Assembly: GCF_021653975.1 (NCBI RefSeq)
Contig: NZ_JAJKFK010000013.1
Location: 1 to 64,000 of the forward strand
Direction: 5' to 3'
DNA length: 64,000 bases
Source: Amycolatopsis sp. GM8
GTDB taxonomy: Bacteria; Actinomycetota; Actinomycetes; Mycobacteriales; Pseudonocardiaceae
Of this stretch, positions 61,067-61,921 are shown one piece after another. The position numbers and the translations under genes are program-made. The notes under the pieces are model-generated. The model worked only from the letters and a program-made list of their open reading frames with translations. It was not told where the DNA came from and ran no database searches. Each line of letters begins with the position of its first letter. Position 1 is the stretch's first letter.

Positions 61067-61372
61067 TTAACGCCCGAGCCGCCCGCGCCCCAGGTTGAGC
61101 AGCGCCATCGCGAGCTGCCTGCCGTCGGGACCGAGGTCGCGGTAGCGGGCGAGCACGTCCATCTCGCGGTTGTAGACGATCCGGGTGCCGCCGGCCGCCA
61201 TCCGCGCGCGGCCGATCGTCTGGGACACCTCCACCCGGCGTTTGACCAGGCGGAGGATTTCCGCGTCCAGCCAGTCGATTTCCTTGCGCAGCTCGGTGAT
61301 CTCCTCGGCCGAGGCGATCGGCTCCGCGGAGGAGACGCGGCCTTCTTCGGTTTCTGCGTTCTGTGTGTTCAC
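61067..61372 (-). CDS. chorismate mutase (AroQ type)
   Basis: 101 residues from GTG at 61372. AroQ helix bundle: EITELRKEIDWLDAEILRLVKRRVEVSQTIGRARMAAGG, then REMDVLARYRDLGPDGRQLAMALLNLGRGRLGR; the short C-terminal LGRGRLG end is the part that couples actinobacterial chorismate mutase to DAHP synthase. The start has ggagg 5 bases upstream and gives the same length as mycobacterial Rv0948c. Longer frames begin inside the attenuator. pcrA follows on the other strand, as in mycobacteria. Converts chorismate to prephenate, leading to Phe and Tyr. Confidence 0.9.
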   Translation of the reverse strand: MNTQNAETEEGRVSSAEPIASAEEITELRKEIDWLDAEILRLVKRRVEVSQTIGRARMAAGGTRIVYNREMDVLARYRDLGPDGRQLAMALLNLGRGRLGR

Positions 61373-61420
61373 TGGGACCTCCGGTCGGTTCGGACCCCCA
61401 CTCGATCCCAGAGCCGACGA

Positions 61421-61449
61421 AAGCCCCGGGTCCGTGGACTCCGGGGCTT
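61421..61449 (-). terminator. attenuator terminator hairpin
   Basis: On the minus strand: aagccccgg, inner gtcc-ac-ggac, ccggggctt, then tcgt. Ends 48 bases before the chorismate mutase start. Its left arm can instead pair with the leader-peptide region. Confidence 0.8.
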
Positions 61450-61470
61450 GGCGGTGATTGCGGTCGGACA

Positions 61471-61533
61471 CTACGCGATCACGGGAGCCGGAGTCCGGGT
61501 CCCGTAAAAAAATCGGTACATGTCGTGCCGCAT
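61471..61533 (-). CDS. Tyr/Phe leader peptide of chorismate mutase
   Basis: 20 codons from ATG at 61533 to TAG at 61471, product MRHDMYRFFYGTRTPAPVIA. Six of the first ten residues are Tyr, Phe or Arg, with a Tyr-Arg-Phe-Phe-Tyr run just before hairpin 1:2. Starts 4 bases after the stop of the DUF1707 gene. A regulatory reading frame rather than a functional peptide. Confidence 0.75.
   Translation of the reverse strand: MRHDMYRFFYGTRTPAPVIA
61481..61505 (-). promoter_or_regulatory. attenuator protector hairpin (1:2)
   Basis: Minus strand acggga, c, ccgg, act, ccgg, c, tcccgt: a 6-bp outer and 4-bp inner stem. Its strand 2 contains ggactccgg (61488-61496), perfectly complementary to ccggagtcc of the terminator left arm (61436-61444). 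Confidence 0.75.
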
Positions 61534-61537
61534 GGGG

Positions 61538-61921
61538 TCAGTATTGCACAACCGCCCGCCTGCGCCGCAGGCCCGCGTGCACCACCAGGCTCATGGTGAG
61601 CCAGAAAATCGGTGCGACGGGCCAGAAGAACGGCACGCCCGACGTCGCCCAGGCGACGATCAGCAGTGCCGAGAAGAACACCACGGCGGCGGCGTGCACC
61701 CGCAGCGGTGGCGGGAAACCCGGCCGCCGCGCCACGGGTTCGGCGGGCAGGTCGGCGACGAAGCCGGCCAGCTCGTCGACGTAGGTGGCGGCATAAACCT
61801 CACCCAGGCGCTGTTCTGTTTCAGCGAGGGTGAGACGGCCTTCGGAACTGGCTTTCTGGATACGGGTGGCGATCCGCTCGCGTTCGGCGTCCGAAGCGCG
61901 GATCCGGCTCGGTGTGGTCAT
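61538..61921 (-). CDS. DUF1707 SHOCT-like membrane protein
   Basis: 127 residues from ATG at 61921. DUF1707 motif RIRASDAERERIATRIQKASSEGRLTLAETEQRLGEVYAA, then two transmembrane helices (AAAVVFFSALLIVAWATS and FFWPVAPIFWLTMSLVV). Function unknown. Upstream of the attenuator on the same strand. Confidence 0.8.
   Translation of the reverse strand: MTTPSRIRASDAERERIATRIQKASSEGRLTLAETEQRLGEVYAATYVDELAGFVADLPAEPVARRPGFPPPLRVHAAAVVFFSALLIVAWATSGVPFFWPVAPIFWLTMSLVVHAGLRRRRAVVQY

Follow-up and report, generated by a model that had tools for sequence, protein, structure and literature searches.

The chorismate mutase (CM) gene in a 64-kb stretch of Amycolatopsis DNA (the window, that is, the whole stretch analysed) is preceded by a short reading frame rich in aromatic codons and by a set of mutually exclusive hairpins. 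Judged from sequence comparison, this element is very probably a ribosome-mediated transcription attenuator that would set CM expression by the level of charged tRNA-Phe and, probably, tRNA-Tyr. Comparison between genomes gives good support for a real, widely conserved attenuator of this kind, with sensing of Phe more secure than sensing of Tyr. A preliminary description of the locus, made from its letters, had proposed a Phe/Tyr attenuator, and this reading is supported by the conservation of the codons, by covariation and by the presence of the element upstream of CM genes in relatives.

Anatomy of the locus

On the minus strand of the window a DUF1707 gene is followed by the leader frame with its hairpins and then by the CM gene (Table 1). 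The leader frame of 20 codons, its run of Tyr, Arg and Phe codons and the pairings 1:2, 2:3 and 3:4 had all been given in the preliminary description and were recovered base for base, as were the perfect nine-base complementarity of strands 2 and 3, and the CM start with its GGAGG, 48 bases past the terminator. The identity of the gene was also correctly named: the protein scores above the cut-off of NF005894 and of TIGR01808, and PF01817 is matched as well.

Table 1 Positions in the window of the leader, the candidate regulatory hairpins and the CM gene
Feature	Position	Strand	Basis or remark
-10-like hexamer AATACT	61540..61545	-	6 nt before leader ATG; sequence and comparison of 75 elements
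Leader peptide ORF MRHDMYRFFYGTRTPAPVIA, 20 codons, ATG 61533 to TAG 61471	61471..61533	-	Sequence
Control codons Tyr-Arg-Phe-Phe-Tyr	61504..61518	-	Conserved part Phe-Phe-Tyr 61512-61504; codon columns of 75 elements
Hairpin 1:2	61481..61505	-	Folding against shuffles; covariation
Strand 2	61488..61496	-	Antiterminator partner of strand 3
Inner antiterminator helix, 5' side GTGAT	61478..61482	-	Change in pair column 47-74
Inner antiterminator helix, 3' side ATCAC	61454..61458	-	Alignment of relatives
Strand 3	61436..61444	-	Common to antiterminator and terminator
Terminator stem-loop 3:4, then short U-tract	61421..61449	-	Folding; pair analysis; tail counts
Shine-Dalgarno GGAGG of CM	61378..61382	-	Sequence
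CM gene, monofunctional, AroQ type, start GTG 61372	61067..61372	-	NF005894, TIGR01808, PF01817

Each structure is more stable than nearly all of its shuffled versions. Hairpin 1:2 folds with -15.5 kcal/mol (1 of 200 shuffles equally good), the 61-nt stretch holding both strand 2 and strand 3 with -25.8 kcal/mol (1/200), and the terminator stem 3:4 with -22.2 kcal/mol (0/200), and for the whole 123-nt leader the folding z-score is -5.39 (0/200). Beyond the preliminary description, the antiterminator is extended by the inner helix GTGAT:ATCAC, and the leader ATG is preceded at 6 nt by the -10-like AATACT. A longer CM frame that opens at 61471 was considered as coding sequence and rejected, since the distance from leader stop to terminator differs among relatives by single bases.

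The terminator tail of the window is modest: of the 12 nt that follow GGGG, 5 are T, and two of those belong to the stem. A scan of the window with consensus patterns listed neither terminator 3:4 nor any promoter here, the likely reasons being the short U-tract and a promoter that differs from the E. coli type. These two observations would suit a translational or Rho-dependent switch, in which the hairpins matter but Rho ends transcription or the translation of CM is controlled. We consider such a switch unlikely, given that the same 12 nt hold 3 to 8 T (median 6) in 75 aligned elements, with long T-runs in some families, and that the ribosome site of CM lies outside the hairpin. The Rfam covariance models, amino-acid leaders and T-box included, gave no match at gathering score in the window, and in seven relatives they gave two matches only, both far below the gathering scores (E up to 1).

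Conservation among close relatives

A CM of this kind is present in all 19 genomes of the genus that were searched, and the element is found at all 19 main CM loci (L001-L019). A second, divergent CM (L020, G003:C1:2210337; 53% identity) has no attenuator upstream.

A wider set comprises 80 named loci (73 distinct sequences and 7 duplicates), kept by CM similarity out of 133 found; they come mostly from Amycolatopsis and otherwise from genera that we take to be Pseudonocardiaceae. When the element is called by a T-run/Tyr motif with at most two errors and a strand 3 with at most one mismatch, it precedes the CM gene in 80 of 80 loci, and in 78 of them Phe-Phe-Tyr is in frame with a start codon. 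The two exceptions are L056, where the codons read Ile-Phe-Tyr, and L082, where the T-run is one base shorter and the in-frame Tyr codon is lost; in L022 the frame shifts directly after Tyr. The stems are kept in all three. Conservation of the leader Phe and Tyr codons in relatives, which the preliminary description had named as a check, is thus found here as well as in the 75 aligned elements described below.

Its other check, compensatory change in the stems, gave a divided answer. Covariation was analysed in an alignment of 56 sequences, chosen from the 73 distinct ones and the window. For the pairs of the terminator state, 97.0% of the cells are paired, five pairs have changed on both sides, and none of 500 shuffles is equally good on any of five measures. 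The antiterminator pairs are 97.8% paired with a covariation score reached by 0 of 500 shuffles, two of the five antiterminator measures not beating the shuffles (67/500 and 467/500). Compensatory changes occur in 1:2, in 3:4 and in the inner antiterminator helix, where pair column 47-74 changes from A-U (44 sequences) to G-C (10 sequences); in the 9-bp helix 2:3 these 56 close sequences contain one-sided changes only, and no double change.

One locus in this set, L044 (JOAA01000048.1), is filed under the title Rhodococcus rhodnii; in the part compared, its element and that of Kibdelosporangium aridum (L042) are the same, and the assembly may have been given a wrong name or contain foreign DNA.

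Conservation across the order

Searched against 298 genomes of the order, a covariance model built from the close-relative sequences (R1) found matches in 224 (E <= 0.01). In the genome of the window it has one strong place, at 111 bits, the next unrelated place scoring 16 bits. From the R1 matches listed, 60 far loci of the order were picked by hand for spread, and a CM gene lies downstream of the element in 58 of them; for L169 and L173, tblastn found no CM in the fetched stretch. Among the far families, f18/g78 is presumably Streptomyces-like and f8/g27 presumably mycobacterial. A search of the phylum with R1 matched 30 of 296 genomes, 8 of them in the order, and the other 22 (E 3.9e-5 to 0.0075) were taken as noise.

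The control codons are strongly constrained over this range. Across the 75 aligned elements the first is Phe in every case (TTT 71, TTC 4), the second is Phe in 54, Tyr in 14 and another residue in 7, and the third is Tyr in 73 (TAC 65, TAT 8) and Phe in 2 (both TTC). Two of the three are therefore aromatic in 75/75 and the remaining one in 68, with synonymous changes between TTT and TTC and between TAC and TAT. Several leader families have extra Tyr codons (YYFYYG, FYYG, FFYGYR). The codon directly after Tyr specifies Gly in all 75 CM elements and in most of the DAHP synthase leaders listed below; pairing in the stem could account for two of its bases, but not for the fact that it stays the same across different stems.

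In 74 of the 75 elements, 6-7 nt separate a well-scoring -10-like hexamer from an in-frame ATG or GTG, as expected of leaderless transcripts, and the leader frame of the window is probably leaderless too. Shuffled upstream stretches reach the same score in 23 of 1500 cases, the score having been devised after the motif had been seen. The native partners of all four helices, 2:3 included, pair better over the order than 2000 of 2000 permutations, a control which, like the shuffles used throughout, takes no account of relatedness.

These data bear on two other accounts of the element. The first would see an ordinary terminator of the upstream DUF1707 gene (PF08044) together with a chance reading frame, and the same-strand position of that gene, whose stop at 61538 comes right before the leader, is what it would draw on. 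We give it next to no credence: L076, L090 and L099 keep the element though the upstream sequence, by eye, looks like the start of an opposite-strand gene; the codon constraint and the pairing of strands 2 and 3 would be left unexplained; and the far CM loci (58/60), the codon columns of the 75 elements and the leader starts contradict it.

The second account is arrest by the nascent peptide, in which FFYGxRTPAPV would stall the ribosome upon binding of a small molecule rather than through codon starvation. The residues after Tyr are indeed strongly conserved in Pseudonocardiaceae and the Gly is nearly universal, as described above, but many of the conserved bases sit in stems and the tail varies by family (PAPVIA, AVPVGI, AAVGRA, PVSVTAG). 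Moreover, indels shift the frame after Tyr in L022 or at the T-run in L082 with the stems kept, so that no conservation of the peptide independent of RNA structure was found. Peptide arrest is thus very improbable.

A proposed model of the switch

The element has several hallmarks of a classical attenuator, namely clustered codons for the product amino acids, mutually exclusive pairings 1:2, 2:3 and 3:4, a ribosome stall that favours 2:3 (in folding calculations), and a downstream gene, CM, that makes a precursor of the amino acids presumably sensed. Prephenate from CM feeds the synthesis of both Phe and Tyr.

In the mechanism that we propose, a leaderless transcript would start at the leader ATG. 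Under shortage of Phe or Tyr, the ribosome would stall on the Phe-Phe-Tyr codons and block strand 1, whereupon 2:3 and the inner GTGAT:ATCAC helix would form before strand 4 is made, and RNA polymerase would continue into the CM gene. With Phe and Tyr plentiful, the ribosome would reach the stop codon and be released, hairpin 1:2 would re-form, and strand 3 would be left free for strand 4, the resulting terminator 3:4 ending transcription. A ribosome still at the stop codon would cover the inner antiterminator helix. The sequences themselves show the anatomy of the element, its conservation, the constraint on its codons and the covariation; where transcription starts, that it ends at 3:4 in the cell, how amino-acid supply acts on it and what happens when Phe and Tyr are plentiful are parts of this scheme that we infer from them.

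We examined the stall by folding, with an assumed ribosome footprint of 12 nt ahead of the A site and 12 or 15 nt behind the P site that was forced to be single-stranded, in an RNA ending after strand 3. Helix 2:3 forms in 74 of 75 elements with the ribosome at the second Phe codon, in 65 with the ribosome at the Tyr codon and in 16 without a ribosome; in the window the corresponding numbers of 2:3 pairs are 8, 6 and 0. Stalling is thus predicted to favour the antiterminator, more so at Phe than at Tyr. In a cut-down version of this test, shuffled sequences formed 2:3 in 469 of 1500 cases and strand-3 swaps in 717 of 750, so that stall folding speaks for the geometry of the element and not for coevolution. 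Full-length folds beyond the stalled ribosome prefer 3:4 in 69/75 (Phe stall) and 74/75 (Tyr stall), so that the switch must be a kinetic one.

The well-fed state fits the familiar scheme less clearly. In the 75 elements 27-45 nt separate the Tyr codon from the leader stop codon, which lies beyond strand 2, not its usual place in textbook attenuators, and a ribosome there consequently covers few strand-2 bases (on average 1.2 to 3.6 of 9). With the ribosome at the stop codon, 2:3 still forms in 36/75 or 18/75 elements for a 5' reach of 12 or 15 nt, with 8 or 4 pairs, respectively, in the window, and the textbook off-state is not reproduced. As the ribosome at the stop codon is less decisive in these folds, the off-state more likely depends on ribosome release and re-folding of 1:2 than on masking of strand 2.

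The element could be an attenuator for Phe only, its Tyr codon having little or no regulatory weight, which is what has been reported for AroR-aroF of C. glutamicum, whose leader has Phe-Tyr-Phe and responds to Phe but not to Tyr (PMC11802643). Since no effect of Tyr supply is reported there despite the Tyr codon, Tyr sensing in the CM element is something we infer only. The invariant first Phe codon (75/75) and the more frequent formation of 2:3 at the Phe stall under the assumed footprint agree with sensing of Phe alone; the third column, aromatic in 75/75, and the extra Tyr codons of several families speak against it. We thus regard a Phe-only attenuator as a serious but somewhat unlikely possibility, and retain control by both Phe and, probably, Tyr.

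CM and DAHP synthase leaders in the class

With a second covariance model (R2), built from the 75-sequence alignment of CM elements, we searched 394 genomes of the class; 154 had a match at E <= 0.001, among them 32 of the order, and many of the other matches are weak. We examined 40 regions, 39 of them R2 matches in the class and one a match in the genome of the window: a CM gene follows in 8, a type I DAHP synthase preceded by a leader in 25, and the other 7 are misses. The leaders of the CM elements outside the order include MFTQTTFFFTYGNRPAGRHGRAA, and four of these eight loci (L254-L257) lie in genomes that we take to be Streptomyces. The type I DAHP synthase leaders include MRTAFWFWYGDGP and MQRNFWRFYGYRP; two of the proteins score over the TIGR01361 cut-off, the remaining 23 being identified by tblastn. 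The same architecture can be read at one of these, L262, where GGACCCG pairs with CGGGTCC and the inner helix is formed by GTTCGCC with GGCGAAC.

Among the misses, L253, L263, L270, L272, L281 and L287 precede neither gene, and at L285 the DAHP synthase is on the other strand. L263 is a miss despite an R2 E-value of 2.3e-9, from which we conclude that, outside the order, R2 overstates the significance of its matches. The second R2 match in the genome of the window (L253; 26.4 bits, E 1.1e-4) lies, by eye, at the 3' end and terminator of a TetR-type-looking gene and was rejected.

Within the order, a scan of 27 type I DAHP synthase loci, in which leaders were chosen by aromatic density and not by Trp, gave 8 clear aromatic leaders, 2 doubtful ones (L297, L322) and 17 loci with none. 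R2 matches 7 of the 8 clear leaders at E 2e-8 to 3e-4, L314 only in its terminator, and because R2 scores these palindromic hairpins on their reverse strand too, at up to E 2.9e-7, the weaker matches are not strong proof of homology. The genome of the window carries both versions, its type I DAHP synthase (L294; G000:C1, upstream of 613497) following a leaderless-looking frame of 22 codons, MRRYFWFSGPALGGPAGEIAAR, which begins MRRYFWFSG and has Tyr-Phe-Trp-Phe and GC-rich hairpins; the CM leader of the same genome has Tyr-Arg-Phe-Phe-Tyr. R2 gave no match to this DAHP synthase leader at E <= 0.01. Both versions are found in six genomes altogether (that of the window, G022, G030, G038, G054 and G063), the core of the DAHP synthase leader of G038 having Trp and Tyr but no Phe.

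No aromatic leader was seen at any of 30 type II DAHP synthase loci scanned, three of which have a frame open to the edge of the flank, nor in the stretch read at the prephenate dehydratase gene of the window's genome (L295), a gene that may itself be leaderless (TAACCT, 6 nt, GTG). The type II DAHP synthase locus of the window's genome was left aside.

Control codons and the pathway branch

The two kinds of leader differ in Trp. Trp is found in the seven-residue aromatic core of 23 of the 25 model-found DAHP synthase leaders versus 2 of 83 CM leaders (2 of the 75 aligned elements and none of the 8 outside the order), and in both of the exceptional CM leaders (L179, L180) it stands four codons before the Phe pair. 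It is also present in the core of 9 of 9 DAHP synthase leaders from the window's genome and the order, picked by aromatic density. Counting distinct peptides only, the ratio of leaders with and without Trp is 26:2 for DAHP synthase versus 2:79 for CM, among related sequences that are not independent. Since the CM elements from which the model was built have no Trp among their control codons, the Trp of the DAHP synthase leaders was not built in.

Codons for Phe, Trp and Tyr occur together (as in AFWFWYG and NFWRFYGY) at L258, L261, L262, L264, L265, L268, L269, L273-L280, L282-L284, L286 and L288-L291, which apparently are cases of one leader for three amino acids. CM makes a precursor of Phe and Tyr only and DAHP synthase one that leads to Trp as well, in agreement with the two codon sets. 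From these comparisons, the control-codon set would appear to follow the pathway branch, with Phe and Tyr before CM and Trp usually added before DAHP synthase.

Discussion

Leader-peptide control of a CM gene is known from E. coli, where the pheL leader has Phe codons, no Tyr codon and a ribosome site. There, the fused CM gene pheA is attenuated by charged tRNA-Phe (PMC11802643). The likeness to our element would lie in the control of a CM gene by attenuation through charged tRNA-Phe, as that source describes it; pheA encodes a fused chorismate mutase-prephenate dehydratase, whereas the gene considered here is a monofunctional CM, with Phe and Tyr codons and a leaderless-looking start.

The preliminary description held that aromatic attenuators in actinobacteria are described mainly for trp genes. 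This needs correction in view of AroR-aroF of C. glutamicum, in which a Phe-Tyr-Phe leader attenuates DAHP synthase (Neshat et al. 2014, as cited in PMC11802643; PMC4046766). As described in these sources, it is the nearest case to ours, being actinobacterial and combining a Phe/Tyr leader peptide with ribosome-mediated attenuation of an early aromatic-pathway gene; it controls DAHP synthase, whereas the present element precedes CM, a comparison of leaders made by description. The uORFC-13-1 motif upstream of aroF in Acholeplasma, a uORF predicted ahead of a terminator and containing one or more Phe codons (PMC8632094), likewise joins a Phe-containing uORF and a terminator on an aromatic-pathway gene, although, again by description, in an unrelated organism and on another gene.

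Short leader frames before hairpins are also shared with the leaderless peptides of S. lividans and the trp attenuators of actinobacteria, as described in PMC8079986 and PMC1262725. An RNA-seq annotation of S. lividans lists eight leader peptides in its Table 4, most of them said to be leaderless and some without a U-tract; leaders for Phe, Tyr or CM are not among them (PMC8079986). That table has no CM leader, yet the genomes presumed to be Streptomyces (L254-L257) carry the CM version. A 2005 survey of actinobacteria, in the part available to us, reports no conserved structures upstream of amino-acid pathways other than Trp, Cys, Leu and the ileS T-boxes (PMC1262725). The word chorismate is absent from the main text of a survey of premature terminators (PMC2965389), and neither 'chorismate' nor 'Rv0948c' occurs in the main text of a 2026 paper on attenuation in M. 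tuberculosis (PMC13236596), whose Extended Data Fig. 5 shows loci that the legend leaves unnamed and of which one may be relevant. Among the matches listed in the open-licence full-text literature, we found no account of attenuation acting on a CM gene in actinobacteria.

The occurrence of similar leaders on two genes may reflect a common history. We regard it as evenly balanced whether a single ancestral attenuator for aromatic amino acids, in existence before the sampled actinomycete orders separated, has been reused on CM and on type I DAHP synthase, with its control codons retuned (Phe/Tyr vs Phe/Trp/Tyr) and its off-state reached by ribosome release and re-folding of 1:2. If this is true, about eight codons would integrate the charging levels of up to three tRNAs. 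For a large group of actinobacteria, among them many makers of antibiotics, the finding points to a regulatory input into the Phe/Tyr branch. As nature supplies CM leaders with Phe and Tyr next to DAHP synthase leaders with Phe, Trp and Tyr, the codon logic of attenuation can be tested on natural sequences, and the element could serve in practice as a point at which to relieve feedback in strains that make aromatic-derived compounds.
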